DNA of 55,141 nt from NCBI GenBank assembly GCA_027023405.1, contig JALVVN010000006.1, positions 1 to 55,141 on the forward strand. The letters are read 5' to 3'. Under the pieces are notes generated by a model. The model was not told where the DNA came from, made no database searches, and worked only from the letters and a program-made list of their open reading frames with translations. The translations under genes were made by a program, and so were the position numbers. Below are positions 2,507 through 28,406 of this stretch, in pieces. The stretch's first letter is position 1; each line of letters opens with the position of its first letter. This DNA comes from Campylobacterales bacterium (GTDB taxonomy: Bacteria; Campylobacterota; Campylobacteria; Campylobacterales; QNZT01).

Positions 2507-3145
2507 ATGAGGCATATCAAAACAATTTCCGAATATGGCATCGTTGGCAGTATCGGTGCATTAGCGGCAATCAATTTCATCGGATGCGGTGATAGCGGTG
2601 CTTTTTTACCGCCACAGCAACCACCCGTCACCCAGGAGCAAAACCAAGCCCAAAACGCCTTTGTCGTAATCGAAGAGGTGGCACCAAAAAAATATAAGAT
2701 CGCCGAAGAGTTCCCGGCAAAAGAGACCCGCATCATTCTTAAGACACTTGATGGGAAAGAGCGAGTACTCACCAAAGAGGAGGCGGACAAGCTGATCAAA
2801 CAAGAAGCGGCAAAAATCGACGCAAACCAATCCCCGCTCACTAATCCGGAGATGGCAAGCAGTGACGGTAGTATGGGGCTAGGCGGTATCTTACTCTCAA
2901 GTATGGCGGGAGCGGTACTGGGTAGCTGGATCGGCAATAAGCTTTTTAACAACCCCACCTATCAACAGCAACGCGCACGAAGCTACAAAAGCCCGCAAAC
3001 TTATAGCCGAAGCAAAAACTCTTTTAACAAAGCCAAAGCCAAACGCGCAACATCTAAACGATCGGGGTTTATGAAGCGTCGAAGTGCACCGAGACGAAGC
3101 AGTGGCTTTTTCGGCGGTAGTCGTGGCGGATTTTTTGGAGGATAG
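2507..3145 (+). CDS. UPF0323 family lipoprotein
   Basis: 212 residues from the ATG at 2507, chosen because AAGGA at 2496-2500 sits 6 nt upstream; an in-frame GTG at 2501 abuts that site and is unlikely. The N-terminus carries a lipobox (FIGC, Cys 27), so the product should be a lipid-anchored envelope protein. A hydrophilic region is followed by a Gly/Ser-rich hydrophobic stretch (GLGGILLSSMAGAVLG, about 125-140), a basic Ser/Arg/Lys region and a glycine-rich tail ending in GGFFGG. The family (H. pylori HP0232 as I recall) has no assigned function. Its stop lies 2 nt before the next gene, a glutathionylspermidine-synthase-like ATP-grasp enzyme, so the two are almost certainly co-translated. 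Confidence 0.8.
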   Translation: MRHIKTISEYGIVGSIGALAAINFIGCGDSGAFLPPQQPPVTQEQNQAQNAFVVIEEVAPKKYKIAEEFPAKETRIILKTLDGKERVLTKEEADKLIKQEAAKIDANQSPLTNPEMASSDGSMGLGGILLSSMAGAVLGSWIGNKLFNNPTYQQQRARSYKSPQTYSRSKNSFNKAKAKRATSKRSGFMKRRSAPRRSSGFFGGSRGGFFGG

Positions 3146-3147
3146 GG

Positions 3148-4332
3148 ATGAAATTACAAAAAGTCAAGCCGTTAGAGAAAGAGTTTTTAGATCAGATTCA
3201 TTTTTCATGGCATACTCATGCACACGATGATTCAGCGTTTCTCAAAGATGAGATTGTCCTTGTTTCACAGCAGGAGGTCGAAGCCTACTATCATGCGGCA
3301 AATGAACTCTACGATATGTGTGTCGAAGCGGCAGAGTATGTGATCGAAAATGATCTCTTTCACGAACTGGATATCCCCTTTAATCTCATCGATTTAATTA
3401 AAAAGAGTTGGGAAAATGATGTACATTGGCATCTCTATGGGCGTTTTGATTTTGCAGGTGGCTTGGATGGTTTGCCAATCAAACTACTTGAATTTAATGC
3501 CGACACCCCCACAAGCCTCATAGAAACCTCTATCGCACAGTGGGCACTACTCAAATACAACCATCTCGATGACGCCAAACAGTTTAACAATATCTATGAA
3601 GCGCTTAGGGAAAATTTTCAGCGACTCGTCACACTTGAAGAGAGTGTAGAATCTTTTGAAGAGCGCTACGAGGGGTGGAAAATACTCTTCTCTAGTGTCA
3701 GAGGTGCGCAAGAGGATGAGGATACGACGCGCTATCTGATGGAGATTGCCGAACAAGCGGGCTTTGATGTGGCGTTTGCTTATGTGGATGAAGTAGAATT
3801 TTCGGATGAGGGGATCTTCTATCAAGATGAGCAGTATGAGTATTGGTTTAAACTCCTACCGTGGGAGGATATCGCTATCGAAGAGGGAGAGTTGGCAACC
3901 CTACTCGATGAGATCGTCACCAACCAAAAAGCGATCATTCTCAACCCTGCCTATACGCTCCTCTTTCAGAGCAAAGGGATCCTCAAAATTCTTTGGGATC
4001 TCTTTCCCAACCACCCTCTCCTTCTTGAAACACGCTTTGAACCATTGAAGAATCAAGCCTATGTCGAAAAGAAATGTTTTGGACGGGAGGGTGAAAATGT
4101 GACAATCGTCGATCGCAATGGATCCATCATCGACAAGCAAGAGGGTCCCTACGAAAACTTTCGATCCGTCTATCAAGCCAAAGCGACACTCAATCAAGAT
4201 GAAAAGGGCAACTACTACCAAGCAGGTGTCTTTTTCGCTTATGAGGGGTGCGGTTTGGGATTTCGAACCGCTTCACGACCAATTATCGAAGATCGTGCCC
4301 ATTTTGCCGCACATATGATCAACGATGTATAG
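3148..4332 (+). CDS. Glutathionylspermidine synthase-like ATP-grasp amide ligase
   Basis: 394 residues matching the GSP_synth C-terminal ligase family (E. coli YgiC/YjfC type) along its full length; landmarks include YGRFDFAG, LLEFNADTPTSL and the C-terminal FRTASRPI. The family ligates an amine to a C-terminal glycine carboxylate using ATP. The amidase (CHAP) domain of bifunctional GspS is absent. Campylobacterota generally lack glutathione synthesis, so glutathionylspermidine is an unlikely product and the true substrate is unknown. The start is 2 nt after the UPF0323 lipoprotein stop; GGAGG inside that gene's end is the ribosome site. The same kind of pairing (lipoprotein YgiB with YgiC) exists in enterobacteria, which suggests a joint role. 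Confidence 0.82.
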   Translation: MKLQKVKPLEKEFLDQIHFSWHTHAHDDSAFLKDEIVLVSQQEVEAYYHAANELYDMCVEAAEYVIENDLFHELDIPFNLIDLIKKSWENDVHWHLYGRFDFAGGLDGLPIKLLEFNADTPTSLIETSIAQWALLKYNHLDDAKQFNNIYEALRENFQRLVTLEESVESFEERYEGWKILFSSVRGAQEDEDTTRYLMEIAEQAGFDVAFAYVDEVEFSDEGIFYQDEQYEYWFKLLPWEDIAIEEGELATLLDEIVTNQKAIILNPAYTLLFQSKGILKILWDLFPNHPLLLETRFEPLKNQAYVEKKCFGREGENVTIVDRNGSIIDKQEGPYENFRSVYQAKATLNQDEKGNYYQAGVFFAYEGCGLGFRTASRPIIEDRAHFAAHMINDV

Positions 4333-4396: not shown

Positions 4397-7300
4397 ATGA
4401 AAAAACTATGGAATCTCATCATCTCAATGAAGACGATGGTAATCTTCACACTACTCTTTGCCTTTGCTTCTGCGATGGGTACTTTTATCGAAAATGATTA
4501 CGGTACCGAAACCGCATGGGCGACAATTTATACGACATGGTGGTTTACACTCATCATGGTCGTACTAGCACTCAACCTCATCGGTAATATTTTTCGATTT
4601 AAACTCTATCAACGATCGAAACTCGGTGCTTTTATCTTTCATACCGGATTTTTAGTGATCCTCTTGGGTGCTGCTATTACACGCTATGTCGGCTATGAAG
4701 GTGTGATGCATATTCGTGAAGGAGGCACTTCAGACAATATTCGCACCAACTACAACTATATTCAGATCGATGCGACAAAAAATGGTAAAACATTTCACAA
4801 AGATCACAAACTCCTGCTCTCTAAAATCAGTTCCAATGACTTTAACATCAAACTGAAAGTCGATCATGAACCGGCACAACTCAAGTTTATTGCCTATCTC
4901 CCTTATGCCAAACAGGTACTTGCGCAAGATCCCAAAGGAGAAGCAATGATTGAGATGATGGTTGTCGCTCCAATGCAACAACCCGAAACGCTTATTCTCA
5001 AAGATCATAGTACACTTGAGCGGGGTGGTATGCGTATAAGCCTCAACCAAAAAGAGGGGGATATTTCGATTTTTACTAAAGAGGGAAAACTCTACTTCAA
5101 ATCAACAAAGCCAATCCACTGGATGAAGATGGCGGATCGTAGTAGCGGTACTTTTGAAGCAAACAAAGTCTATCCGTTTGAAACAAAACGACTCTATGAT
5201 CTAGGATCTATCAAAATCGTACCTAGAGAAGCTTTTGCCAAAGCAACAGTCAAGCTCATCAACCAACCAGACAAAACACCAGGTGGTCAAAAAATGAAAA
5301 GTATCCAAAAAGAGGCACTCTTAGCCGATCTAACCTACGCAGGTCACACTCGCCGTCTAACACTCTTTGGATATGGTAAAGGGAGTTTAGGAGAACCGGT
5401 TGATTTTAAGATAGATGATACACATTTTCATATTCTTTGGGGTGCTAAACTCTTTACACTTCCTTTCTCTCTCACACTCAAAGATTTTGAACTCAAACGC
5501 TATCCCGGTAGCATGTCCCCCTCCTCCTACTCGAGTCGTGTCGTACTCAACGATCCAAAGCATCATGTCACGATGCCTTATCATATCTATATGAATCATG
5601 TGCTTGATTATCGAAACTATCGCTTCTTTCAATCCTCCTACGATATGGATGAGAAGGGAACAATTCTTTCAGTCAATCATGATCCGGGGAAAATTCCCAC
5701 CTATATCGGCTATCTCATGCTGGCGATCGGCTTTATCTTGACACTCCTCAATCCTAAAAGCCGTTTTCGCAAACTCTCAAGCGCACTGCAAAAAGATACA
5801 CTCTTTAAAGCCGTGCTTTTCTTTACACTCTTTTCACTTGCGCAGCCACATACACTATACGCAAATGATGCAATCAAAACCGCACAATCTTTTCAAAAGG
5901 CACACGCCGACAAATTTGGCGATCTACTGATTCAAACACACGATGGGCGTATCAAAACACTCGACACCTTCTCGACAGAAATTATGTATAAATTACACAA
6001 AGGTACAACTGCATATGGCTTAAATAATAATCAAATTATCCTAGGAATGCTCACTGCTCCACAGGCGTGGGAGGAAATTCCTCTCATTCGTATCAAACAC
6101 ACTCGACTTAAAAAAGTTTTGGGTCTTCCAAAAGATGCGAAATATGCCTCTTTTAGCGACTTTTTTCAAGATAAAAAGGGGTATAAACTGGCAAGCTATA
6201 TCCAAGATTCCGTGAGAAAACCGCCTATCAAACGCAATGAGTTTGATCGTAGTGTCATTAAGGTCGATGAGATGCTCAATATTATGTATATGATCTATAC
6301 GGGTGATCTCTTCCGCATCATTCCACAAGCAAATGATCCAAGTCACAAATGGCACCCGATCAAAGAAGCTATCGATACCTTCCCGCCACAAGAGGCGCAA
6401 ACCGTTAAAAATCTTGTGGTTAATTACTTTCGTTCAATTGACAGTGCGAGAAAGAGCGGGAACTGGACACAAGCAGATCAAGCACTCAAAACACTACAAG
6501 ATTATCAATACAAACTCTCTTCGGAAATCATTCCTGCTAAAAGCAAACTCCAAGCGGAGAAGATCTTTCGCAAAATCGCACCGGTACACAAACTCATCGT
6601 TGTCTATCTGCTACTAGGATTGGTACTACTCTTTTTTGTGTTGCTAAAAATTCTCAAACCCCATATGCATAAAATCAACGGCATCGTCAAAGGGGTTCAA
6701 GCACTCTTTATCCTTGCCTTTATCGTACATACGGCAGTTTTGGCGGTTCGATGGTATGTCGGCGGTCACGCTCCGTGGAGTAACGCCTATGAAGCGATGC
6801 TCTATGTCGCATGGTCAATGGGCTTGGCAGGTGTCGTCTTTATGCGCTATTCTCCGATCGTCACTGCGCTAAGTGCTATCATTGCGGGTACCACTCTCGC
6901 AACGACTTTTTTCAATGAAATGAACCCACAAATTACCAATCTTGTACCGGTACTCAAATCCTACTGGCTCAGTATTCATGTCTCGATTATTACGGCTAGT
7001 TACGGATTTTTGGGACTGAGTGCCATCTTGGGTCTCTTTACCTTGATTCTCTTTATCATTCAGGGTAAAACACCCAATCCTCGTATCCAAAATAGTATTT
7101 CCCAAACCGTCAAACTCAATGAGATGACAGCGATCATCGGGCTAATGATGATGACCATCGGAAACTTCATCGGTGGTGTCTGGGCAAATGAGTCGTGGGG
7201 GCGCTACTGGAGTTGGGATCCAAAAGAGACTTGGGCATGGATCTCGATTCTCGTCTATACCGCAGTGCTACACCTTCGCTTTATTCCCTACTTCAACAAA

Positions 7301-7507
7301 GAGTACAACTTCAAATTTTCTGTTGTGACGACTGTGGCGATTAGCTCTATCGTGATGACCTTTGTCGGGGTGAATTACTATCTATCGGGCATGCACTCAT
7401 ACGCAGCAGGTGAACCGGTACCGGTACCAAAATATCTCTATGTCATTGTCGCATCGATTTTAGCGATTATTGTGTTAGCAGGAGTAAGAAGAGTGAGAGG
7501 GAAATAA
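4397..7507 (+). CDS. ccsBA: Fused ResB-CcsA cytochrome c synthase (system II)
   Basis: A 1036-residue fusion of ResB/CcsB and CcsA, the membrane complex that carries haem to the periplasm and attaches it to CxxCH motifs. The N-terminal half has three membrane segments (about 8-30, 43-62, 74-95), a large periplasmic ResB domain and another membrane segment (about 437-456). The C-terminal CcsA half has multiple membrane helices with GGHAPWSNAYE (about 789), a His in WLSIHVS (about 855) and the WWD haem-handling motif WGRYWSWDPKETW (about 934). Fused CcsBA of this size is typical of Campylobacterota (NrfI/CcsA types). It would serve the cytochromes encoded nearby (12-heme cytochrome, cytochrome c peroxidase). 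Confidence 0.95.
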   Translation: MKKLWNLIISMKTMVIFTLLFAFASAMGTFIENDYGTETAWATIYTTWWFTLIMVVLALNLIGNIFRFKLYQRSKLGAFIFHTGFLVILLGAAITRYVGYEGVMHIREGGTSDNIRTNYNYIQIDATKNGKTFHKDHKLLLSKISSNDFNIKLKVDHEPAQLKFIAYLPYAKQVLAQDPKGEAMIEMMVVAPMQQPETLILKDHSTLERGGMRISLNQKEGDISIFTKEGKLYFKSTKPIHWMKMADRSSGTFEANKVYPFETKRLYDLGSIKIVPREAFAKATVKLINQPDKTPGGQKMKSIQKEALLADLTYAGHTRRLTLFGYGKGSLGEPVDFKIDDTHFHILWGAKLFTLPFSLTLKDFELKRYPGSMSPSSYSSRVVLNDPKHHVTMPYHIYMNHVLDYRNYRFFQSSYDMDEKGTILSVNHDPGKIPTYIGYLMLAIGFILTLLNPKSRFRKLSSALQKDTLFKAVLFFTLFSLAQPHTLYANDAIKTAQSFQKAHADKFGDLLIQTHDGRIKTLDTFSTEIMYKLHKGTTAYGLNNNQIILGMLTAPQAWEEIPLIRIKHTRLKKVLGLPKDAKYASFSDFFQDKKGYKLASYIQDSVRKPPIKRNEFDRSVIKVDEMLNIMYMIYTGDLFRIIPQANDPSHKWHPIKEAIDTFPPQEAQTVKNLVVNYFRSIDSARKSGNWTQADQALKTLQDYQYKLSSEIIPAKSKLQAEKIFRKIAPVHKLIVVYLLLGLVLLFFVLLKILKPHMHKINGIVKGVQALFILAFIVHTAVLAVRWYVGGHAPWSNAYEAMLYVAWSMGLAGVVFMRYSPIVTALSAIIAGTTLATTFFNEMNPQITNLVPVLKSYWLSIHVSIITASYGFLGLSAILGLFTLILFIIQGKTPNPRIQNSISQTVKLNEMTAIIGLMMMTIGNFIGGVWANESWGRYWSWDPKETWAWISILVYTAVLHLRFIPYFNKEYNFKFSVVTTVAISSIVMTFVGVNYYLSGMHSYAAGEPVPVPKYLYVIVASILAIIVLAGVRRVRGK

Positions 7508-8193: not shown

Positions 8194-8394
8194 TTATAAG
8201 ACTTTTTTAAACTGCTGTAACCATTCACTATTATCCTCGATCACATCCGACTGCTTCTTTAAAATAAGATGTTCGATATTTTCCAACTCTTCCATGGAGA
8301 GATATTTAAGCACATAGCTATCGATCTCAATCTCTCCGCCGTAATTCTCCAAAAGATGTTCGATCTCTTGGAGTTTCTTCTCCTTCTCATCCAC
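8194..8394 (-). CDS. Small acidic protein of unknown function, last gene of the cytochrome operon
   Basis: 66 residues, no signal peptide, predicted mostly helical and acidic (EKKLQEIEHLLENYGGEIEIDSYVLKYLSMEELENIEHLIL). The start overlaps the stop of the upstream 12-heme cytochrome gene by 8 nt, so translation is probably coupled. A cytoplasmic location is expected. It could be a small accessory or assembly factor, but no family is recognised. Confidence 0.55.
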   Translation of the reverse strand: MDEKEKKLQEIEHLLENYGGEIEIDSYVLKYLSMEELENIEHLILKKQSDVIEDNSEWLQQFKKVL

Positions 8395-10750
8395 GACGAT
8401 ACCTCTTTATCCACCACAAAATCAACAGAACCAAAAGAAGTGGAACTAACAACACCTGCACCCACGCACCGATATTGAGTAGCTTGTGTAGGATCGATTC
8501 ATGCATCTTCTTATCCACTTTAACTCCCGCCATCTGCGCCATGTGTGTCATCGCGGAAACAGCTAGATTGCCTTCTGGGATCGATTGGTGACAGCTCAGA
8601 CAGACACCGCGACGATCAAGCTTTTGACGCGTTTCATTGTCAAGTGCGTGTGAAAGTCTCCAGTGATCGCCGACCGTCTGTACCTGGGTACCGTTCTCAT
8701 CCACCATCACGGAATAGTCGTAGGCAAGATTTTTAATAGCTGGAATCTGCTCATCATAATGCTTGGGAAGCACCTGCTTATCCGCCGTCATCAGATCAAC
8801 GATTGTCGTTTTTCGTTGATCGCTAAAATATTTTCCTCCCTCGATCCCCATTCCAAGTGCTTTTGCCGATGCATGGCAACTCTCGCAACTTCGGGATCGC
8901 TTGCTCACTGTGTGCGGTTGCACCGGCGACATCACGATCGAGGTGACACTCTTCTCTCCCTCAACATTGGGGAGTTTCCAGATGTAGTTTTGCAACAGCG
9001 CATTACCGTTCTTTCCGATCACCGTCAAAGTCACCTGACATCCGGGGATCGTCGGTGAAATTCGTCCCTCACCGTTGCGACTTAGCGCCGGATTTTCCCA
9101 CCTAAGATAGCTTCGTGTCTCTGTAACCTGCCCATCAACAAGAAAGTGTTTGAGATCTTTGACATCTCCCGTGACACCGTTGTGATGCACTTTGGAAGCA
9201 GCGAGAAAGTCAGGATTTTGTTTCCCCTTGGAGTAATCCACCTTCACATGACAACCATAACACTGCGGTGCCCAAGTCGCATGGCAGGTATAGCACTCCA
9301 ACTTCTGGGTATGGGCTTTGATCTTATCCATCGCCACAAGCCCCATTTTGGAGATTTTCCCCTCTTTTTTGAGAAGTTTCAGCGGTTTGAGTGTGATCTC
9401 CTTACCACTGGCTAAATGCATGATAACTTTATTGCCTTTCTTCGTTGCATGCACCATCGGATTACCACGCGCTGAAAGCAAAAATCCATCACCCTTATCT
9501 TTAGGGATCGACCCTTTTTGTAGATATTTTGCCAGCGTCATAGTCGTCCCACGCGCCTTACCAGTTTTGACTTTGGTACTAAACTCGTCGCTATACCCTA
9601 ACGGCAACTCCCATGGATATTTGTCGGTCGTACCGTGGCAATCTTGACACTCGATCTCTACCGCACCCAAATTGGCTCCACGAAAGAAGCCGTCACCGTG
9701 CATATCGTTGGAAGTGTGGCAATCTTGACAGAGCATCCCTTTGGTGTAGTGAATATCTTCGGTGAGATGCAGGTAGCGCTTGGTGTGGAGTTTGGGTTGC
9801 GCATTTCCCTGCGCATCAAAGGTCGCTTTATACTCCGTCTCCATCAATCCCTGATACGAAACTCCGATCCGTTTTCCCCGATTGTGACAAGTGGTACATG
9901 TCTCAACCGGCATCCCCGAATAGGTCAAACCGTGAATATGCACCTTGGACTTAAAAGAGGATTGGATCTGATGTGTGAGCAGATGCCCCGTTTCATTTTT
10001 ATCGATCGTCGGATCATTTCCCTCATATCGACCGGAGTTTGAGTAGGGTATATGACAACTCGCACATCCGATCCCGCGAAAATCACCCCTGCGCTTTCGT
10101 CCCTTTCCGCCGGTGTGGCATCGCAGACACTCTTGTCGTAAATAGGTATAGACACTGAGTGAAGGATCTTTTTCTACCTCTTCCGCTGTGGGAGCTTTTG
10201 GAAGCTCTTTGGTCTTTTTCATGAAACCTTGGGGCTCCATTTTCGCCAACTTATCCATATACGCTTGATAGACCTTTGTACCTAATCTCTCGTGCGGATC
10301 GGGAGAGCTACCTCCAAAATTGGTATAGGTATGATTGTAGCCGTCTTTGGCGCCGAATCCCCAAAGTGCACCATGAATTTTTCCCTGCTCAGTTGCCATG
10401 AGGTTATTGTTTTGAGCGCTAACCTCCTCTTTGTGACACATTCCGCAAGTGTTTTCATTGATCCACGGGCTTGCAGGATAGGGATAGAAATCTTTCGGAC
10501 CTTCATTCTCTTCAAAATACTCCAAAGTTCCGCTATGCGCCTCTTTTTTCTCATCCGCTTCGGGATTTCCTCCATGACAAACGACACAATCGTTTCCCTT
10601 CGCACCCGCTTTCTCCGCCTTGTTCAAGATTGCTTGCATCATTTTGGAGTTGCGATCACGGATATCCTCGATCCCCTTGTGGCAGTGAATACAGCTATTT
10701 TTCGCATAAAGCGATACAACTGCAACCACTACAAATAGAAATATTCTCAT
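8387..10750 (-). CDS. Tail-anchored dodecaheme c-type cytochrome
   Basis: 787 residues with an N-terminal signal peptide (about 1-16), twelve CxxCH haem-attachment motifs spread through the protein (first CIHCH at 20-24; then CVVCH, CGMCH, CLRCH, CASCH, CTTCH, CQDCH twice, CYTCH, CYGCH, CESCH, and last CLSCH near 728) and a single C-terminal membrane helix (about 757-778) followed by a basic KRYRRG tail. The topology implies a periplasmic multiheme domain anchored in the inner membrane. Long haem-free stretches between motifs suggest a catalytic domain rather than a pure electron wire. Relatives may include octaheme oxidoreductases of the sulfur or nitrogen cycle, but I cannot assign a substrate. 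It overlaps the 66-residue gene downstream and is divergent from the peroxiredoxin. Confidence 0.85.
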   Translation of the reverse strand: MRIFLFVVVAVVSLYAKNSCIHCHKGIEDIRDRNSKMMQAILNKAEKAGAKGNDCVVCHGGNPEADEKKEAHSGTLEYFEENEGPKDFYPYPASPWINENTCGMCHKEEVSAQNNNLMATEQGKIHGALWGFGAKDGYNHTYTNFGGSSPDPHERLGTKVYQAYMDKLAKMEPQGFMKKTKELPKAPTAEEVEKDPSLSVYTYLRQECLRCHTGGKGRKRRGDFRGIGCASCHIPYSNSGRYEGNDPTIDKNETGHLLTHQIQSSFKSKVHIHGLTYSGMPVETCTTCHNRGKRIGVSYQGLMETEYKATFDAQGNAQPKLHTKRYLHLTEDIHYTKGMLCQDCHTSNDMHGDGFFRGANLGAVEIECQDCHGTTDKYPWELPLGYSDEFSTKVKTGKARGTTMTLAKYLQKGSIPKDKGDGFLLSARGNPMVHATKKGNKVIMHLASGKEITLKPLKLLKKEGKISKMGLVAMDKIKAHTQKLECYTCHATWAPQCYGCHVKVDYSKGKQNPDFLAASKVHHNGVTGDVKDLKHFLVDGQVTETRSYLRWENPALSRNGEGRISPTIPGCQVTLTVIGKNGNALLQNYIWKLPNVEGEKSVTSIVMSPVQPHTVSKRSRSCESCHASAKALGMGIEGGKYFSDQRKTTIVDLMTADKQVLPKHYDEQIPAIKNLAYDYSVMVDENGTQVQTVGDHWRLSHALDNETRQKLDRRGVCLSCHQSIPEGNLAVSAMTHMAQMAGVKVDKKMHESILHKLLNIGAWVQVLLVPLLLVLLILWWIKRYRRG

Positions 10751-19862: not shown

Positions 19863-20690
19863 ATGGGTTTTAGAATTAACACAAATGTAGCGGCGATGAA
19901 TGCGCATATGCATGCAGTGAACAACAATGTCGGACTTAACAAGTCTCTTTCAGCTTTGAGTAGTGGTCACAGAATCAACACAGCAGCTGATGATGCGTCA
20001 GGTCTTTCGATCGCAAACAAATTGAGTGCGCAAGCAGAGGGTCTCGGTCAAGCAGTGAGAAACTCTAACGATGCTATCGGTCTTGTGCAAACAGCTGACG
20101 GAGCTTTGGAAGAGTATGGTAACATCTTGAAGAGAGTGAGAACACTCGCAACACAAGCGGCGAATGATACGCAAAACACAGATTCAAGACAAGCTATCTC
20201 TGATGAGATTACCGCATTGATGGACGAAGCAAATGATATCGCTAAAACGACTAGATTTAACGGTATGAAAATACTTGACGGTAGTCACAATAGTGGTACA
20301 TTTACCTTTCACACAGGTGCATACACTGGAGAGACGCAAACTATCACTATCGGCAACGCTAGTGTAGGTGCCGTAAGTAACGCTGCTAACCACACTGTAG
20401 GCACACAGTCTGCAGCTGAAGCAACTATCTCAAATATGGATGTAGCGATAGCTGCAATCGATAAGCTTAGAAGTAAACTGGGTGCACAACAAAACAAACT
20501 TGAGTCAACAGTCAGAAATATCTCTGTGACTAAAGTCAATGTAACAGCTGCGGAGTCTCAAATTAGAGATGTTGACTTTGCTGCGGAGAGTGCAAACCTC
20601 CAAAAGCACAATATCCTCGCGAAATCCGGAACATATGCATTAAGTCAAGCGAATCAAGCGCAACAGAATGTGATGAGTCTACTTAGATAG
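19863..20690 (+). CDS. fla: Flagellin (short form)
   Basis: 275 residues. The N-terminal about 140 residues (MGFRINTNVAAMNAH, SSGHRINTAADDASGLSIANK, RTLATQAANDTQ) and C-terminal about 85 residues (ESQIRDVDFAAESANLQKHNILAKSG, ending QQNVMSLLR) are the conserved D0/D1 helices that polymerise and are exported by the flagellar system. Only about 50 residues of Ser/Thr/Asn-rich sequence lie between, so the surface D2/D3 domains of 500-residue Campylobacter flagellins are missing. Ser/Thr in that short loop are candidate glycosylation sites. AAAGGA ribosome site and a FliA promoter precede it. The convergent Maf/legionaminic acid operon is its likely modifier. Confidence 0.95.
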   Translation: MGFRINTNVAAMNAHMHAVNNNVGLNKSLSALSSGHRINTAADDASGLSIANKLSAQAEGLGQAVRNSNDAIGLVQTADGALEEYGNILKRVRTLATQAANDTQNTDSRQAISDEITALMDEANDIAKTTRFNGMKILDGSHNSGTFTFHTGAYTGETQTITIGNASVGAVSNAANHTVGTQSAAEATISNMDVAIAAIDKLRSKLGAQQNKLESTVRNISVTKVNVTAAESQIRDVDFAAESANLQKHNILAKSGTYALSQANQAQQNVMSLLR

Positions 20691-20697
20691 GCATAAA

Positions 20698-20730
20698 GCT
20701 TAGAGCTAAAGCTCTAAGCGATCTCTTTTT
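20698..20730 (+). terminator. Rho-independent terminator of flagellin
   Basis: GCTTAGAGC (20698-20706), loop TAAA, GCTCTAAGC (20711-20719), then a T-run (about 20725-20730). The stop of the convergent maf gene lies inside the stem, so the hairpin may serve both transcripts. Confidence 0.8.
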
Positions 20731-22717
20731 GAAAAAACCTCTCTAACCTCATTTCAAACGCATCAGCGATCTCTTTTAACTTTGTTATAAACATCTTATC
20801 GACAACAACTATATCATTTTTTACGGATTTGATATTTCTAGTATTTAAAAAATCAAATATATATGGATAGATATATTGCATATATCTCAAAAATATTAAT
20901 GATAAAAGCCCTTCAGTATAGCTATTCGCCTTAGTTATCTTCAAAGACAAATCCATCAAAGCATACTGATACTCTTCAACTGTTGTATATTTTTTGGAAC
21001 GGTGAGCCTTTAATATCTTTTTGATTTGTCTTGTATAAAATAGCATTTGCTCTATATTTTGATGCTCATCACTACTTATTTTATCAGTGGATATAGATAC
21101 AAATAGCTCTTTTAACTCTTTACCTTTGACTGGAACTTTTTTACTCTTTTTATACTCTTCAACCCTTAATGGAATCGTATCATAAAGCTTTGCCCCGTCA
21201 CTTAAATTATAAACTTTAGCACTATCAACTTTGTGTATCCTACTATTTCTCTCAAAAGCCTTTATACTGGATAAAAATGCAGCGGTTGTGTAAGTTCCAT
21301 CTCTAAAATTTCCTTGAGTTCTTATCAAAGATTTACCAAAACTAAATATCTGCTCCATTTTATCTATATTTTCAGCACTTAACTCTTTAGCGTGGATATG
21401 CTCCGAACTATGCGTCATCTTTGTCTCTGGGTCAACCGCGAGATCAAGTCCCAAAAGGTATATCTCATTGGCTCCAAGAGAAACCGCAATCGCATAACTG
21501 ATTGAACCGACACAAGGAGATTCAACAGTTGAAAATCCTATCTTATATTTTGTTCCATTTTCAAAGATAAATACCTTATCTTTATCAAACTTCTTTACTA
21601 TTTCCATTGGAGATTGCGCAGCAAAGAGGGCTAACGGCTTTTTAAAATATTCATCTTTTAACCCCTCAAAATGGGCTCTGTTTGCATCTTCAAAAGGATC
21701 AAGATGCACTACTATATCCGGAACAATACCCTCTTTTTGAAGCGTTTTCAGTGCGGCGGTAACAGAGATAATCGTAAAGTCATCTTGATGTTTTTTCACA
21801 AATCTCAGCTCTCTGGATAGCGATGGACCGGCACCTATGATCAGAAGTGGCGTATCTTCTAAAATAGAAACCGAAGGTTTTAAATTTATAAATCTATACC
21901 CATCCTCCATAAACTCCAATGCTCTTAAAAATTTATTAAAAAAGGCATGATAAGGAAAGAGTTGATAGTTTTGAGAACTCATTATTTCATGAAAAAGTTT
22001 TAACATTTTATCATTCATATGCAGTGTATGAATAAATTTTAGATAGTTATTAAACATAAAGCCATCTTCAAGAAAATCTTCATATATCTCTCTTGCAACA
22101 TCATCTTCATCAAAAACTACAAAATAGAGTTCACTCTTATTTGCAAGTTTTGCATAATCAACTATAAATAGAGAAAGTCGAAATAGTTCTAAATCATCTT
22201 CCACAAAAAGATAAAAATCTGAATCTAACTTTTTATCAGCCTCTTCTATATGCACTCCGAGTCCAACACCAAAAAAAGCAAACTTATACCACTTTTTAGC
22301 TAACTCCTCTTTTGGCATCTTTTTGTTAATATAATTGATAATATTGGCCACACCGTAAAGAGAGTTGGATGTAATATCATGACCTTTATATCCATCTAAT
22401 ACCTCTTTGGTGAATCTCCTTTTTGGTGAGAGCATAAAGATGTTATCCTCTTTTCTAAAATCTATACTCTTTGCAATATCTTTTGCATATTTGTTACTAT
22501 CCATTCCATAGAGGTAGTTTCCGGTACTTTTCTCTCTCACATCAAAATATCCCTCATCTTTATACTCTAATTCATACTTCTCTTGATAATGTCCATTTGC
22601 AACAGCATTTTCAAAAGCGATCAACTTCTCATAAACTCTCGGTTGCTTCTGAGAAAAATAGTCCATATTTTTTAAAAATCTTTGCGTTACCAACTCTTCT
22701 ATATTTACACCACTCAT
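20714..22717 (-). CDS. maf: Motility accessory factor (Maf), flagellin nonulosonate transferase
   Basis: 667 residues with the Maf/DUF115 (6-hydroxymethylpterin pyrophosphokinase-like) core at about 290-480: LLIIGAGPSLSREL, DIVVHLDPFEDANR, SYAIAVSLGANEIYLLGLDLA. Maf proteins transfer pseudaminic or legionaminic acid from the CMP-sugar to Ser/Thr of flagellin before export. The gene is last in an operon that would make CMP-legionaminic acid, and it faces the flagellin gene. Its start overlaps legF by 4 nt. The DNA is visibly more AT-rich than neighbouring housekeeping genes. Confidence 0.88.
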   Translation of the reverse strand: MSGVNIEELVTQRFLKNMDYFSQKQPRVYEKLIAFENAVANGHYQEKYELEYKDEGYFDVREKSTGNYLYGMDSNKYAKDIAKSIDFRKEDNIFMLSPKRRFTKEVLDGYKGHDITSNSLYGVANIINYINKKMPKEELAKKWYKFAFFGVGLGVHIEEADKKLDSDFYLFVEDDLELFRLSLFIVDYAKLANKSELYFVVFDEDDVAREIYEDFLEDGFMFNNYLKFIHTLHMNDKMLKLFHEIMSSQNYQLFPYHAFFNKFLRALEFMEDGYRFINLKPSVSILEDTPLLIIGAGPSLSRELRFVKKHQDDFTIISVTAALKTLQKEGIVPDIVVHLDPFEDANRAHFEGLKDEYFKKPLALFAAQSPMEIVKKFDKDKVFIFENGTKYKIGFSTVESPCVGSISYAIAVSLGANEIYLLGLDLAVDPETKMTHSSEHIHAKELSAENIDKMEQIFSFGKSLIRTQGNFRDGTYTTAAFLSSIKAFERNSRIHKVDSAKVYNLSDGAKLYDTIPLRVEEYKKSKKVPVKGKELKELFVSISTDKISSDEHQNIEQMLFYTRQIKKILKAHRSKKYTTVEEYQYALMDLSLKITKANSYTEGLLSLIFLRYMQYIYPYIFDFLNTRNIKSVKNDIVVVDKMFITKLKEIADAFEMRLERFFQKEIA

Positions 22718-23418
22718 ATCTTCTCCGTTAATTTTTTATCTTGAACTAAAATCTCCGCCAACTTAAAATCAAGCTCACTATCTATATCCACCGATCTGCT
22801 TTGAGGCATGATATATGCAAAGCTATTTGGCATAAAAAAACTTTTTTCTTTTTTTATCATTTCTGTTTTTGCAATGTATATAGCGCCGTTTAATCGATAA
22901 TAAGTAGGCAACTCTTGCGATCGTCTCTCCGCTTTTTTGGGAAGAAAATTATCCATTGAGTGATCTTTTGGAAGCGTATTTGTCCAAAGAGGAGAGTGTT
23001 CACTCTCACAAACAGAAATAATACTATCAGCCTCTTTTTGTATCATCAATTCAACACTTTTATCTATATCTTCGCTACTTCTTAGCGGTGAAGTTGGCTG
23101 AAGTAACATCAAAAACTTGTACGCTTTTCCTTCACTTTCTAATGTCTCAATAGTATGTAAAATCACATCCATAGTACTCGTACTATCTAGTGAAAGCATA
23201 TACGGTCTCTTAAAGGGTACTGTTGCACCATATTGTTGTGAAACTTTTGCTATCTCGTCATCTTCAGTAGATACAACTACTTCATCGACATATTTTGACG
23301 CTAATGCCACTTCAATGCTCCATGCTATCAGTGGCTTTTCACCGAGTTGTTTTATATTTTTTCCCTTAAGCCGCTTACTTCCGCCTCGTGCAGGTATCAG
23401 TGCCAAAATATTATGCAA
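22714..23418 (-). CDS. legF: CMP-legionaminic acid synthetase (acylneuraminate cytidylyltransferase family)
   Basis: 234 residues of the CMP-NeuAc synthetase family: IPARGGSKRLKGKN at 8-21 (CTP-binding loop), STEDDEIA, LLQPTSPLRSSEDID and a C-terminal DIDSELDF metal-binding segment. Activates the nonulosonic acid with CTP. Context (legI, legG, ptmE in the same operon) points to legionaminic acid rather than sialic acid. It overlaps ptmE by 8 nt and maf by 4 nt. Confidence 0.85.
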   Translation of the reverse strand: MHNILALIPARGGSKRLKGKNIKQLGEKPLIAWSIEVALASKYVDEVVVSTEDDEIAKVSQQYGATVPFKRPYMLSLDSTSTMDVILHTIETLESEGKAYKFLMLLQPTSPLRSSEDIDKSVELMIQKEADSIISVCESEHSPLWTNTLPKDHSMDNFLPKKAERRSQELPTYYRLNGAIYIAKTEMIKKEKSFFMPNSFAYIMPQSRSVDIDSELDFKLAEILVQDKKLTEKI

Positions 23419-24478
23419 ATTCTACCTCCTCTTCCTCACTAAAAATCTCTATATAATCCTCTTGTGCCTTCTGATACTCCTCCACTCTACCGATATCAAG
23501 CCAATAATCCTCAATCTTATAGCTATACGCCTCTCCTCTATGAGAAAGTCTTTCAAAAAGAGTCGGCATATCATAAAAAGTATCATCCGGTATCTCTTTT
23601 AGCACTAATGGATTTAAGATATAGATACCGCTATTTACATGGTAATGGTATCTAGGTTTCTCCTTGATAGAGACTATCTTCTCACTCTTGCTCTCTATCA
23701 CCCCAAACGGTATCTGGTACGAATATTCCCGAACACACATCGTAGCAGTCGCACATTTTTTCAAATGCTCATCAAGCAATTGTGCAAAATCAAGATTGGT
23801 TAATAGATCGGCATTCATCACAAAAAAGTCCTTATCAAGCATACCTCTCATGAGTGAAAGTGCACCGGCAGTTCCCATCCGTTTATCTTCATGGACATAC
23901 TCTATCTTGACCCCAAACCTACTCCCATCACCAAAATACTCCTCAAACATCTGGGCTTTATAATTAACACTAAGGATAAAATCTCTAAAGCCCTGCTTTG
24001 AAAAATTTTCTATGATTGTCTGAATGATTGGTTTTCCACCTACTTTTAGCAAAGGTTTTGGCACTTTGTTAGTAAGTGGTCTAAGTCTTGTTCCAAGCCC
24101 TCCTGCCATGAGTACCACCCTATTTGGATAGCTCTTAGTTGACAATAACTCATCAACAAATTTTAGATCGATAAGCTCACCGCTATCATCTACAATCGGT
24201 ATCTGATAAATCTTATGACTTGTCGCTTTTTGGAGCACCTGTTCCTTTGTCTCATTTTCAAAGGCTACTACCGGAGAACTATTCATGATTTTTGTGATCG
24301 GAGCATCTAGATCATAGCCGTTCAATATCGCCCGTCTTATATCACCGTCACTAACAGTTGCGATAAGTTTTCTATTTTCAACGACAAGCGCTATCCTTTT
24401 CGCACCCTTATCAATAACACTCATCGTCTCTTTGATGGACGAATTTTTACTGACGATAATAGATTTTAGATCAAGCAT
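23411..24478 (-). CDS. ptmE: CBS-domain glucosamine-1-phosphate guanylyltransferase, PtmE-like
   Basis: 355 residues from the ATG at 24478, preceded by GGAG; an ATG five codons upstream contains that ribosome site. Two CBS motifs fill residues 1-113, then a sugar-nucleotidyltransferase domain starts with VVLMAGGLGTRLRPLT (121-136) and runs through VNSGIYILNP and the C-terminal YWLDIGRVEEYQKAQ. This CBS plus NTP-transferase layout is that of Campylobacter PtmE, which makes GDP-glucosamine and commits the pathway to GDP-linked intermediates. The CBS pair could sense a nucleotide. Confidence 0.8.
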   Translation of the reverse strand: MLDLKSIIVSKNSSIKETMSVIDKGAKRIALVVENRKLIATVSDGDIRRAILNGYDLDAPITKIMNSSPVVAFENETKEQVLQKATSHKIYQIPIVDDSGELIDLKFVDELLSTKSYPNRVVLMAGGLGTRLRPLTNKVPKPLLKVGGKPIIQTIIENFSKQGFRDFILSVNYKAQMFEEYFGDGSRFGVKIEYVHEDKRMGTAGALSLMRGMLDKDFFVMNADLLTNLDFAQLLDEHLKKCATATMCVREYSYQIPFGVIESKSEKIVSIKEKPRYHYHVNSGIYILNPLVLKEIPDDTFYDMPTLFERLSHRGEAYSYKIEDYWLDIGRVEEYQKAQEDYIEIFSEEEEVEFA

Positions 24479-24531
24479 ACCTACTCCAAGCATTCAATAT
24501 ACTTGAAATATCGGCAGTGATTTAAATTAAT

Positions 24532-25701
24532 TTAATAACAAACAGGAAGATTGTAAAAAGATTTCTTTATCAGATCACCCAAATTACACTCTCTGATAAC
24601 TTTTACAATCTCCCTACTTCCTTTCCCGCTATCATGGGGATTTTTAACCGTTGCCAAACTCTCTTGAAATGCTTTAGCGTATAGCTTTGTAAAAGCCTCT
24701 AATATATCATCTTTCAAAGGAGCGGTATCGATAACACTCTTTGCTTTGATCCTCCCCTTTTGTCTATCCCCGATATTGATAGTTCCTATCTTAAACGAGG
24801 GAGCTTCTATCAAACCGCTAGAGCTATTTCCCACCACCGCATCGACATACTGCATAGCACTAAGATAGCGAAGTTGCCCCAGTGAAGTAAAGGCTACTGC
24901 TTTGTGGCTATTTTTTGCAACATACTCATCTATCATTTGATTGATTACTCTGCCATCTGTATCACTATTGGCTTTTGTGAAGATTATATGGGTATCTGTA
25001 AGTTCATCGATAGCATTTAACAGCTCTTGAAACTGATCTTTTGCGGTGGCATTCTCTAAGGTAACCGGATGGAATGTCACCAAGATATTTTTTTTGTTTA
25101 GTTTGAAATTGATAGAGCTTTCAAACTCCTCTTTTGAGAGAAGTGTTAATCTTTTGATATTTTCTATCCCCATACCGCCTACATTGAAAACTCTTTGGGG
25201 ATCTTCACCAAGTTGAATTACTCTCTTTCTGTACTCATCTGTTGCGGTAAAGTGTAAATGACTCATCTTGGTTATGGCGTGACGGATAGACTCATCAAAT
25301 GCCCCCTCCGTTGTCTCCCCTCCGTGAAGATGTGCTATCGGGATTCTTGCTATCATCGCCGCACTTGCAGCAGAAAAGATCTCATACCTATCTCCTAGTA
25401 CTACAATGATATCGGGCTTTAGCACTTCATACACTTCCGCAAAAGAGATTTGGGCTAATCCCATCGACTTTGATATGCCAACCGGCGTATCGGATGAGAG
25501 AAGCATCTCTATCTTTTTATCGATCTTAAACGCTTTCTCTATCTCTTTGTAAGTGAGTCCAAATTCAGGACTTAGATGCATACCGGTGACGATAAGTTGT
25601 AACTCCAACTTGCTATCAGCCTCTATCTCCCTCATTAGCCAATAGAGCAGTCCATACTCAGCTCTCGTACCGGTTACTACACACACCTTTCTCTTACTCA
25701 T
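24532..25701 (-). CDS. legG: Hydrolysing NDP-sugar 2-epimerase (NeuC/LegG type)
   Basis: 389 residues of the UDP-GlcNAc 2-epimerase family: CVVTGTRAEYGLLYWLMREI at the start, VVLGDRYEIFSAA, HLHGGETTEGAFDESIRHAI and VGNSSSGLIEAPSF. The hydrolysing subfamily releases NDP and a free 2,4-diacetamido-trideoxymannose for the next enzyme. It overlaps legI by 4 nt. Context assigns GDP-diNAcBac as the probable substrate (inference from ptmE). Confidence 0.85.
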   Translation of the reverse strand: MSKRKVCVVTGTRAEYGLLYWLMREIEADSKLELQLIVTGMHLSPEFGLTYKEIEKAFKIDKKIEMLLSSDTPVGISKSMGLAQISFAEVYEVLKPDIIVVLGDRYEIFSAASAAMIARIPIAHLHGGETTEGAFDESIRHAITKMSHLHFTATDEYRKRVIQLGEDPQRVFNVGGMGIENIKRLTLLSKEEFESSINFKLNKKNILVTFHPVTLENATAKDQFQELLNAIDELTDTHIIFTKANSDTDGRVINQMIDEYVAKNSHKAVAFTSLGQLRYLSAMQYVDAVVGNSSSGLIEAPSFKIGTINIGDRQKGRIKAKSVIDTAPLKDDILEAFTKLYAKAFQESLATVKNPHDSGKGSREIVKVIRECNLGDLIKKSFYNLPVCY

Positions 25702-26693
25702 ATCAACTCATCCGCTTTATAGTCTCTCTGTGCCACTCTTCCTACTATCTCATCCCAACGCATTGGAGTTATACCGCTACCGGGTCGTTTTACCGTAATG
25801 TTATTCTCAGAAAACGGCTCACCTTTTTGAATATCTCTTGATGCAACGATCGATTTTCTTGCTACCTCTATGTTGGGTTTTTCACTAGGGGTTGGCTTTT
25901 TGATACCGTTACCCAAAGCTTTTTCGATATTTCGTATGCCACTTACCATCGCTTTTAACTCATCAGGCTCTAAAGATGCCTTGTGATCTGGTCCCTCCAT
26001 ATCTCTATCTAAAGTAAAGTGTTTTTCTATCACCCTTGCTCCCATCGCTACCGCAGCTATCGGTACCTCTATACCAAGCGTGTGATCACTATACCCTACC
26101 TCCACACCAAATGCCGATGCAATCGTCTGCATCGCTCTTAGATTGACATCCTCCGTCGGTGTCGGATACATGGTATTTGCATGTAAAACGGTGATATCTT
26201 CTCTTTTCGTACCGGAGTCTACCAGCAGATCCAAAGCATCCTCTATCTCTCCAAGATCAGCCATGCCCGTTGAGAGGATGACTCTCTTTTTTAATCTTCC
26301 GATAGCTCTTAGATACGGCAAGTTTGTTATCTCACCGCTTGGGATTTTAAATATCTCTAATCCCAACTCATCTAAAATCTCAATACTTTCAAGATCAAAC
26401 GGAGTTGATAAAAAGATGATCTCTTTTTCATCACAATATCTCATAAGCTCTTTGTGGGTATCCACATCCAATTCAAGCTTCTTTATCATCTCATATTGAG
26501 ACTCATCTTCATCAGTTGTCTCTTTTTGATAGTTGGCTTTTTGTGCATTTTTCGAGACTAAATTTTTTGCTTTAAATGTCTGAAACTTTACCGCGTCCGC
26601 TCCGGCTTGGCTTGCCACATCGATAAGCTTTTTGGCTATTTCGATTGAGCCGTTATGATTGACTCCCGCTTCAGCGATGACAAATGTACTCAC
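25698..26693 (-). CDS. legI: N,N'-diacetyllegionaminate synthase (NeuB family)
   Basis: 331 residues: NeuB TIM barrel (FVIAEAGVNHNGS, ADAVKFQTFKA, KIPSGEITNLPYLRAIG, VGYSDHTLG, IEKHFTLDRDMEGPDHKASLEP) followed by a C-terminal SAF/antifreeze-like domain (about 275-331). Condenses the 2,4-diacetamido mannose-type sugar with PEP to make the nine-carbon acid. LegI versus NeuB/PseI is decided by context (LegG and PtmE homologues). It overlaps both neighbours by 4 nt. Confidence 0.87.
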   Translation of the reverse strand: MSTFVIAEAGVNHNGSIEIAKKLIDVASQAGADAVKFQTFKAKNLVSKNAQKANYQKETTDEDESQYEMIKKLELDVDTHKELMRYCDEKEIIFLSTPFDLESIEILDELGLEIFKIPSGEITNLPYLRAIGRLKKRVILSTGMADLGEIEDALDLLVDSGTKREDITVLHANTMYPTPTEDVNLRAMQTIASAFGVEVGYSDHTLGIEVPIAAVAMGARVIEKHFTLDRDMEGPDHKASLEPDELKAMVSGIRNIEKALGNGIKKPTPSEKPNIEVARKSIVASRDIQKGEPFSENNITVKRPGSGITPMRWDEIVGRVAQRDYKADELI

Positions 26694-27265
26694 TTTGCTA
26701 CACTCCCCGCTTTGATAAAGCCTGATACCTCAATAGACTCTTTAGTAACGGCACCGCTTCCGACAAAGCTATTTGCTTTCACTTTAGTACCGCCGTTGAT
26801 GATAGCTCCTGTTGATATGTGGGTATGATCTTCAACCACAGCATCATGCTCAATGAGTGCTTTGGTATTGATAATACAGTTTGAGCCTACTTTCGCATTA
26901 GCGTTGATAAGTGCATGGTGCATCACTACCGTTGCTTCACCAATCATTGCATATCGTGAGACATAAGCAAGAGGTGAGATGATAGTCGGCAAATTAAAAT
27001 CCAACTCTTTGAGTTGATGATAGAGTTTAACTCTAACATGATTTGTTCTGATATGACCGACAGCTACAAGTACATTTGAAAACTCTTCTCTTAACTTCGG
27101 CAGATCTTCATCGCCCCCTATCACTTCATATCCCAATATTTTAGAACCTTTTGGCATATCATTAACAATAATACCTGCTATTTCATATCTATCTTCAAGC
27201 TCAATCACATCTATCACCGATCTGCAATGTCCACCACCGCCAATCAACAAAATTTTCTTTTTCAT
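26690..27265 (-). CDS. legH: Left-handed beta-helix N-acetyltransferase (PglD/NeuD/LegH type)
   Basis: 191 residues: N-terminal Rossmann-like part (ILLIGGGGHCRSVIDVIE) and a hexapeptide-repeat beta-helix (about 85-185) with the HDAVVEDHTHISTGA segment typical of sugar acetyltransferases. It should acetylate the 4-amino group of the LegC product using acetyl-CoA. Four-nt overlaps on both sides place it tightly in the leg operon. Confidence 0.82.
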   Translation of the reverse strand: MKKKILLIGGGGHCRSVIDVIELEDRYEIAGIIVNDMPKGSKILGYEVIGGDEDLPKLREEFSNVLVAVGHIRTNHVRVKLYHQLKELDFNLPTIISPLAYVSRYAMIGEATVVMHHALINANAKVGSNCIINTKALIEHDAVVEDHTHISTGAIINGGTKVKANSFVGSGAVTKESIEVSGFIKAGSVAK

Positions 27266-28404
27266 AAAATTACGCTACTTGTTATATTTACTATTCGATC
27301 TTCCAGCCACTGAGCATTTGAAAGATCCCCGCATTGAGCGTCTTTATACATTTCCAGTTTATTCATCAAGCGCCAAATAGGACGCGTCATGATGCCCCTA
27401 TCATTAGTATATCTCAAAAACGCATCCCGCTCATCTCTATCTTTTAGTACTATCGCATTTAGCCAGTAGTTTGATCTCGCATCTTTTGGTTCAGTGACAA
27501 ACTCCATATCCATCTCTTTAAAAAACGCTTCGTAAGTTTTAGCCAACTCTCTTTGTTTTTGGACAAAGATATCAATATTTTCCATCTGAGCTACACCAAG
27601 AGCCGCTGCCAAATTTGTGAGACGATAGTTATAACCTATCTCATCGTGGATATATTCATACGGGTGAGGAACTTTGGCGGTTGTTGTGAGATGTTTGGCT
27701 CTTTTTGCTAATGCTTCATCATCGGTTACGATCATACCTCCACCGCCTGTGGTGATGATCTTATTGCCGTTAAAGGAGAATATCCCTACTTTACCAAAGG
27801 TACCTGTATGTCTCTCTTTATAGTACGAACCTAGACTCTCCGCCGCATCTTCCACTACCGCTATGTTGTAACTATCACAAATTTCCACGATCTCATCTAT
27901 TTTACACGGATGACCGAATGTATGCATCGGCAGACAAGCTTTGATGAACTTTTTGGTTTTTTTGTTGATACACTCTCCGTCACTGTTGATGGTGGTATTT
28001 TCTTTTAAAAATGTTTCTAGCTTTTGAGAAGAGAGCCCCAAAGTCTCTCTATCAACATCTACGAAGATCGGCTTGGCACCGCAGTAACTGATAGCATTTG
28101 CCGTTGCGATAAATGTCAAAGGCTGCGTGATCACTTCGCTCTCTTTATCCACACCTACTAGTTTCAAAGCCGTGTGGAGTGCTGATGTTCCGTTACTTGT
28201 TGCTACGGCATACTTTGCACCCGTATATTCAGCCACCATCTCTTCAAACTTGGTTACATATTTACCGACACTTGAGACAAAGGTTGAGTCGATGGTATCA
28301 TTTACATACTCTTTCTCATTACCAAAAAATTGCGGTTCATGAAGGGCAATAAACGCATCTGTGCCGTATAGGTTTCGGATAAACTCGACTACTTTTTGGT
28401 ACAC
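27262..28404 (-). CDS. legC: PLP-dependent sugar 4-aminotransferase (DegT/DnrJ/EryC1/StrS family)
   Basis: 380 residues. Family hallmarks: ATSNGTSALHTAL, VVEDAAESLGSYY and the PLP Lys in SFNGNKIITTGGGGMI (about residue 214). Transfers an amino group to the C4 keto group made by LegB, using glutamate. It starts 2 nt after legB ends and overlaps legH by 4 nt. Confidence 0.85.
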   Translation of the reverse strand: MYQKVVEFIRNLYGTDAFIALHEPQFFGNEKEYVNDTIDSTFVSSVGKYVTKFEEMVAEYTGAKYAVATSNGTSALHTALKLVGVDKESEVITQPLTFIATANAISYCGAKPIFVDVDRETLGLSSQKLETFLKENTTINSDGECINKKTKKFIKACLPMHTFGHPCKIDEIVEICDSYNIAVVEDAAESLGSYYKERHTGTFGKVGIFSFNGNKIITTGGGGMIVTDDEALAKRAKHLTTTAKVPHPYEYIHDEIGYNYRLTNLAAALGVAQMENIDIFVQKQRELAKTYEAFFKEMDMEFVTEPKDARSNYWLNAIVLKDRDERDAFLRYTNDRGIMTRPIWRLMNKLEMYKDAQCGDLSNAQWLEDRIVNITSSVIL

Positions 28405-28406
28405 CG

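Follow-up and report, generated by a model that had tools for sequence, protein, structure and literature searches.

A lipoprotein gene with a glycine-rich end, followed almost without a gap by a gene for an ATP-grasp ligase of the glutathionylspermidine synthetase type, raises the question of what this ligase acts on, and whether its target is the tail of the protein encoded beside it. Both genes lie on the forward strand of the window, that is, the whole 55,141-nt stretch of Campylobacterales DNA that was analysed. A sequence-only reading had described a lipoprotein ending in SRGGFFGG with an ATP-grasp ligase after 2 nt, and the open reading frames at 2507–3145 and 3148–4332 bore this out: the lipoprotein ended in SSGFFGGSRGGFFGG and a TAG stop, two nucleotides (3146–3147) separated the stop from the start codon, and the ligase began with ATG at 3148. 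The lipoprotein gene comprised the following features.

2507–3145, + strand: lipoprotein coding sequence, 212 aa, NF003146/PRK04081.1 family (NCBIfam NF003146, E = 7.4e-78, 260.7 bits)
2507–2587, + strand: signal peptide with lipobox, Cys27 being the predicted lipidated residue (both G26 and C27 unchanged across 38 aligned relatives)
2648–2836, + strand: folded beta/alpha domain, residues 48–110 (AlphaFold2 model, pLDDT about 83–90 there)
2870–2947, + strand: conserved glycine-zipper-like hydrophobic segment, residues 122–147 (many invariant columns; hydropathy peak at residues 124–143)
2945–3142, + strand: low-complexity basic tail ending in [F/Y]-G-G, residues 147–212 (17 K/R, 0 D/E)
3095–3118, + strand: RSSGFFGG, an internal copy of the terminal motif, residues 197–204 (from the sequence)
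3131–3142, + strand: codons of the terminal FFGG, the proposed C-terminal modification site (from tail conservation)

The NF003146 score exceeded the curated cut-off of 194 bits and made the lipoprotein a member of this family (PRK04081.1, hypothetical protein), for which NCBIfam gives no function and whose description is silent on both the terminal motif and a ligase partner. The match to DUF1190 (PF06693, the YgiB family) was below threshold (16.1 bits versus a gathering cut-off of 22, E = 0.015), and hhalign against DUF1190 proteins aligned the signal peptide only. The hallmarks of DUF1190 were nevertheless present in form, namely the lipobox, SGFFG in place of RGGFG, and the terminal GG, the internal motif being kept in relatives of the lipoprotein; by alignment, the protein thus resembles DUF1190 without belonging to it. 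A fold search with the model returned no PDB match at E ≤ 0.001, and AlphaFold2 confidence was low over the last residues of the tail. The divergently oriented neighbour (1916–2458, − strand) encoded a secreted protein of 180 aa that belonged to no Pfam or NCBIfam family.

The second gene and its catalytic residues were located as follows, the roles of K276, K308 and R373 being assigned by alignment to PDB relatives.

3148–4332, + strand: GspS/YgiC-type ATP-grasp ligase, 394 aa, without amidase domain (PF03738, E = 7.1e-122)
3442–3498, + strand: residues R99, D101, E115 and N117 of the acid/Mg/substrate strand RxD...ExNADTPT (conserved in 27–29 of 29 divergent ligases)
3973–4266, + strand: K276 and K308, ATP-binding lysines by alignment, and R373, the loop arginine (conserved in 28, 28 and 29 of 29)

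PF03738 (GSP_synth) covered the whole ligase (aa 12–391 of 394, profile positions 3–371 of 371, 407.6 bits) and was the sole domain match; the N-terminal amidase domain of GspSA is therefore absent, as the sequence-only reading had stated. The full catalytic set (R99, D101, E115, N117, K276, K308 and R373) was kept in 27–29 of the 29 divergent members, and no signal peptide was visible. With an AlphaFold2 model of mean pLDDT 88.7, the best Foldseek matches were 7uk6 (YjfC, TMq 0.84), 7uk8 (YgiC, TMq 0.81) and 7uka, with E values of about 1e-26 to 1e-30, so that the nearest solved relatives both by sequence and by fold were E. coli YjfC and YgiC, with which about 27–28% identity was shared in structural alignments. 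Judged by these comparisons, the window ligase is a YgiC/YjfC-type standalone enzyme, peptide-spermidine activity being known from the literature for the two E. coli proteins. E. coli GspSA shared the synthetase fold (TMq about 0.8) and the catalytic residues, but it is a protein of 619 aa with an amidase domain, and its peptide-binding strand reads NADSASC as against NADTPTS in the window ligase. Glutathione had been called an improbable substrate from sequence alone, and the genome carrying the window agreed: it contained no match to GshB (TIGR01380) and none to GshA (PF04262 or PF04107), and since this pathway is absent, glutathione was excluded as the substrate. Directly downstream of the ligase lay a cytochrome c biogenesis gene (4397–7507, a ccsBA-like fusion), and near it a gene for a large multihaem c-type cytochrome of 787 aa with many CxxCH motifs (8387–10750). 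Farther along, at 19863–29594, ORF translations indicated a flagellin gene, then genes on the opposite strand resembling those for making a nonulosonic acid of the legionaminic/pseudaminic type, together with a motility-associated glycosyltransferase, the whole being an apparent flagellin glycosylation cluster.

For a survey of the pair, both genes were fetched from 199 genomes of the same order, Campylobacterales. Of these genomes, 140 carried the ligase, 142 the lipoprotein and 138 both. The two ligase-only cases were ligase fragments in incomplete genomes; the four lipoprotein-only genomes were dismissed as weak matches, two such proteins that were inspected being unrelated glycine-zipper coiled-coil proteins. 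The last two residues of the 138 lipoproteins were GG in 106, GS in 22, IS in 3, and GA and NS in 2 each, with NA, SG and a frameshifted FF occurring once apiece. When each of the 48 genera was counted equally, GG ended the protein in 39.6 of 48 genera versus 1.07 expected from shuffled tails, no simulated set exceeding 8 genera, which rules out tail composition as the cause; the penultimate residue was Gly in 45.0 of 48. Entropy over the last 30 residues in the 48 genera was lowest at positions -1, -2 and -3, those of [F/Y]GG. Only 1 of 481 other ORFs from the same loci ended in GG, and it looks, from its sequence, like the molybdenum-cofactor enzyme MoaA, whose terminal GG is functional. Eleven lipoproteins from stretches in which no ligase was present still ended in GG or GS. 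The sequence-only reading had named homologous pairs consistently lacking a terminal Gly as grounds for giving it up, and this survey left it standing. Its designation of a terminal Gly as the target site held in part, in that GG or GS was conserved among near and far relatives, but the last residue could also be Ser or Ala; from the alignments, the conserved ending is G-[G/S/A] rather than a strict terminal Gly.

Several endings departed from this pattern. In one Helicobacteraceae genus (g47, six genomes), the lipoprotein ended in NS, IS or NA, alongside an intact ligase. Covariation between ligase pocket residues and the tail end was sought, and no clean change tracked the tail; a Met in place of S123 of the ligase was considered as a link to the non-GG end of this Helicobacter-type genus and dropped because sister genera ending in GG also carry Met. 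The lipoprotein of one genome (G086, locus L118) ended in WRRKFF and that of Campylobacter showae (L087) in RIK. In the former, the next reading frame restored ...SGFFGG, the frame having shifted near the SGFF motif, which looks like a frameshift or a sequencing error; the tail of the latter appeared to be frameshifted likewise near SGFF, and either phase variation or sequencing error could be behind both. At five loci (L055, L052, L066, L063 and L048) of Campylobacterota relatives, mostly from family f18, lipoprotein and ligase were about 90–110 nt apart, and between them lay a further small ORF (MNDTHMIGLYATFVFM...), coding for a short membrane protein and beginning just past the lipoprotein stop. 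One genome (G067) carried two ligase genes, of which the lipoprotein-adjacent copy was diverged with a partial family match, while the other lay elsewhere.

Outside Campylobacterales, partners of YgiC-like ligases were compared in plasmid, phage and E. coli records, which are not a random sample of chromosomes. Pairing of a lipoprotein with a YgiC-type ligase in enterobacteria, mentioned in the sequence-only reading, was present in E. coli K-12 as ygiB-ygiC and yjfM-yjfC. These pairs resembled that of the window in gene order, standalone GspS-like ligase and lipobox, and YgiB (SSRSMGG) and YjfM (ARGHWGG) likewise ended in GG, although their sequences were only distantly comparable to the window lipoprotein and enterobacterial YjfM sits in a PspA/DUF350 operon, unlike the window pair. 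With these two proteins included, 21 of 29 distant partners ended in GG and three in GS. GG was found in Vibrio, Proteus, Photobacterium, Rhizobium, Sulfitobacter, two Pseudomonas, Methylobacterium, Methylorubrum, Rhodobacter, Paracoccus, Indioceanicola, Roseomonas, Acinetobacter, Deinococcus, Bacillus subtilis and Paraburkholderia, as well as in Aeromonas phage 31 and Achromobacter phage Motura, and GS in Pseudarthrobacter, Brevibacillus and Nonomuraea. The exceptions were Asticcacaulis (CCG), Sphingomonas (SIHA), Virgibacillus (ASS), and Trichormus and Leptolyngbya (GGSSS/GGASS). The GG/GS ending thus spanned five bacterial phyla and two phages, the groups including Gamma-, Alpha- and Betaproteobacteria, Deinococcus, Actinomycetes and Bacillus. 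In a Pfam search, the partners from Bacillus, Brevibacillus, Deinococcus, Pseudarthrobacter, Acinetobacter and Nonomuraea matched no family; therefore, descent within a single recognised domain family does not by itself account for the common ending. Among 12 divergent DUF1190 proteins (488 aligned columns), the invariant residues were the lipid-carrying Cys, one other Cys, the two glycines of RGGFG and the final Gly, and the Gly preceding the final one was conserved in at least 90%. A search of viral contigs with the Bacillus ligase gave no match. A ligase relative in Azospirillum had lost several catalytic residues and had no lipoprotein neighbour, an isolated, anecdotal case in keeping with a relation between enzyme and tail.

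On balance, we favour a two-component protein-modification module in which the tail carboxylate of the lipoprotein is joined to a polyamine, before export or on a cytoplasmic tail. The ligase would convert the C-terminal carboxylate of the -[F/Y]-G-G (or G-S) tail into an acyl phosphate and then link it as an amide to a polyamine through one of the primary amines of the latter. Spermidine or a closely related compound is the likeliest polyamine, and the lipoprotein would thereby gain a positively charged cap. We infer the tail as substrate, the polyamine as amine and the timing from the gene pairing, the co-occurrence, the C-terminal motif, the catalytic residues, the missing glutathione pathway and the one polyamine biosynthesis gene of the genome; the non-GG ends of the Helicobacteraceae genus, the SS and HA ends of distant partners and the lack of clean pocket covariation speak against it.

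Timing poses a problem for such a module, as the lipoprotein would be exported and the enzyme would be cytosolic. An ATP-dependent enzyme lacking a signal peptide would be expected to work in the cytoplasm, where its target would be either the precursor, still unfolded and not yet exported by Sec or lipidated, or a tail that never leaves this compartment. A permanently cytoplasmic tail, with a second hydrophobic segment and the positive-inside rule, was considered; the strongly basic tail devoid of acidic residues makes it plausible, but it was less preferred. In H. influenzae, the lipoprotein NTHI1101 shares an operon with a putative glutathionylspermidine synthase; it was recovered in the outer membrane fraction but not exposed at the surface, and its deletion had no phenotypic effect (PMC13055389). 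By its gene content, this operon is apparently equivalent to the window pair, and the outer membrane location of NTHI1101 therefore favours, by analogy, modification before export.

An alternative, which we hold to be unlikely though worth keeping in view, is that the ligase makes soluble peptide-polyamine conjugates while the [F/Y]G[GS] end serves the envelope in some other way, for example in docking, in assembly or as a shield against proteases. The partner gene can indeed be unlinked, some partners have no GG end, and the internal SGFFG/RGGFG motif represents other conserved features of the tail. However, ligase and lipoprotein co-occurred almost perfectly, and the same ending was present in partners without recognisable common ancestry, both of which are hard to explain without a direct relation between enzyme and tail.

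With the tail accepted as substrate, the amine could differ, and a peptidoglycan precursor, an aminolipid, ammonia or another protein might take the place of the polyamine. We consider this rather improbable. It shares the tail and catalytic-residue evidence with the polyamine reading; in addition, no polyamine gene was found next to the pair in the window, and no spermidine synthase (PF01564) in the genome. Against it, the genome did encode NspC, the carboxynorspermidine/carboxyspermidine decarboxylase that catalyses the final step of the alternative route to spermidine, and the characterised relatives use spermidine: E. coli YgiC and YjfC are termed peptidylpolyamine synthetases or peptide-spermidine ligases where PMC12568646 cites Pederick 2023, and their RefSeq names are likewise of the peptide-spermidine ligase type. 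Operons of PspA, DUF350, DUF1190 and ATP-grasp genes linked to AdoMetDC have been described (PMC11237479), and in phage Motura, where a homospermidine synthase-ligase neighbourhood was noted with the lipoprotein left unmentioned (PMC9992855), a homospermidine synthase, a lipoprotein ending in Gly-Gly and the ligase lay side by side (L259:668–3493). The whole proposed module would therefore travel on a phage. Given the peptide-spermidine activity of YgiC/YjfC and the polyamine genes neighbouring the pair in relatives, a polyamine is the best candidate by analogy; among the amines listed in the sequence-only reading, it thus gained ground, while peptidoglycan and another protein lost it. The chemistry has a precedent in eukaryotes, where SUMO is coupled to spermidine through its diglycine terminus (PMC12270671). 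This SUMO/ubiquitin-spermidine conjugation likewise joins a Gly-Gly carboxylate to spermidine at the expense of ATP, but it employs E1/E2 enzymes and a ubiquitin fold instead of an ATP-grasp ligase and a lipoprotein and is therefore an analogy, not a homology.

Very little weight was given to the possibility that the lipoprotein tail is an inhibitor or tether that occupies the active site of the ligase and controls the enzyme without being consumed. This explanation would fit the likeness of the tail end to a peptide substrate and its almost constant pairing with the enzyme; yet a free Gly-Gly carboxylate in an active ATP-grasp site supplied with a polyamine should react, and the ligase keeps its full catalytic set.

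The codons of the terminal Gly-Gly offered another explanation, arising from a point that the sequence-only reading had missed.

3137–3141, + strand: GGAGG, overlapping the two terminal glycine codons and serving the ligase gene as Shine-Dalgarno site (from the sequence)

In the window, the two glycine codons GGA GGA (3137–3142) formed part of GGA-GGA-TAG-GG-ATG, with GGAGG six nucleotides ahead of the ligase start, and the arrangement GGAGG-ATAGGG-ATG is a good Shine-Dalgarno site. Gly-Gly might then be a by-product of a ribosome binding site that overlaps the stop codon and serves the downstream ligase; GGRGG codons were used in 83 of 145 closely linked GG ends and at all 16 wide-gap loci as well. 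Nevertheless, the remaining 62 of the 145 had codons such as GGTGGT that make no such site, unlinked lipoproteins kept the GG end, and lipoproteins encoded downstream of their ligase, in Sulfitobacter, Rhodobacter, Paracoccus and Roseomonas, also ended in GG. The Shine-Dalgarno site was therefore rejected as the general cause and is most improbable in that role, although its need may reinforce the codon choice in the window. That an ordinary glutathionylspermidine synthetase stands by chance beside an unrelated lipoprotein agrees with the PF03738 membership of the ligase but has a negligible probability, since the glutathione pathway and the amidase domain are both absent, E. coli YgiC makes no glutathionylspermidine according to the account of Sui 2012 given in PMC12506659, and the pairing is conserved across phyla.

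The activity of YgiC/YjfC, the families DUF1190 and NF003146, and the operon context are already known or named. In the literature searched, the reach of which was limited so that an earlier proposal for YgiB/YjfM may exist, no statement of a shared Gly-Gly code or of lipoprotein substrates was found, and the natural substrates of YgiC and YjfC of E. coli K-12 appear unassigned there; the C-terminal code allows a direct and cheap test of them. More broadly, and with less than even confidence, we propose that dedicated ATP-grasp ligases cap the Gly-Gly or Gly-Ser end of partner lipoproteins with polyamines, as a widespread bacterial modification that is also carried by phages, in which YgiB, YjfM and NF003146 proteins would be the missing physiological substrates of YgiC/YjfC-type ligases; in its chemistry, this would be a bacterial counterpart to SUMO-spermidine conjugation. 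Annotations as "glutathionylspermidine synthase family" are probably misleading, above all in organisms that lack glutathione. If the proposal is true, it would mean a new kind of protein C-terminal modification, a covalent role for polyamines in the cell envelope, and a function for DUF1190, for NF003146 and for many of the proteins so annotated.
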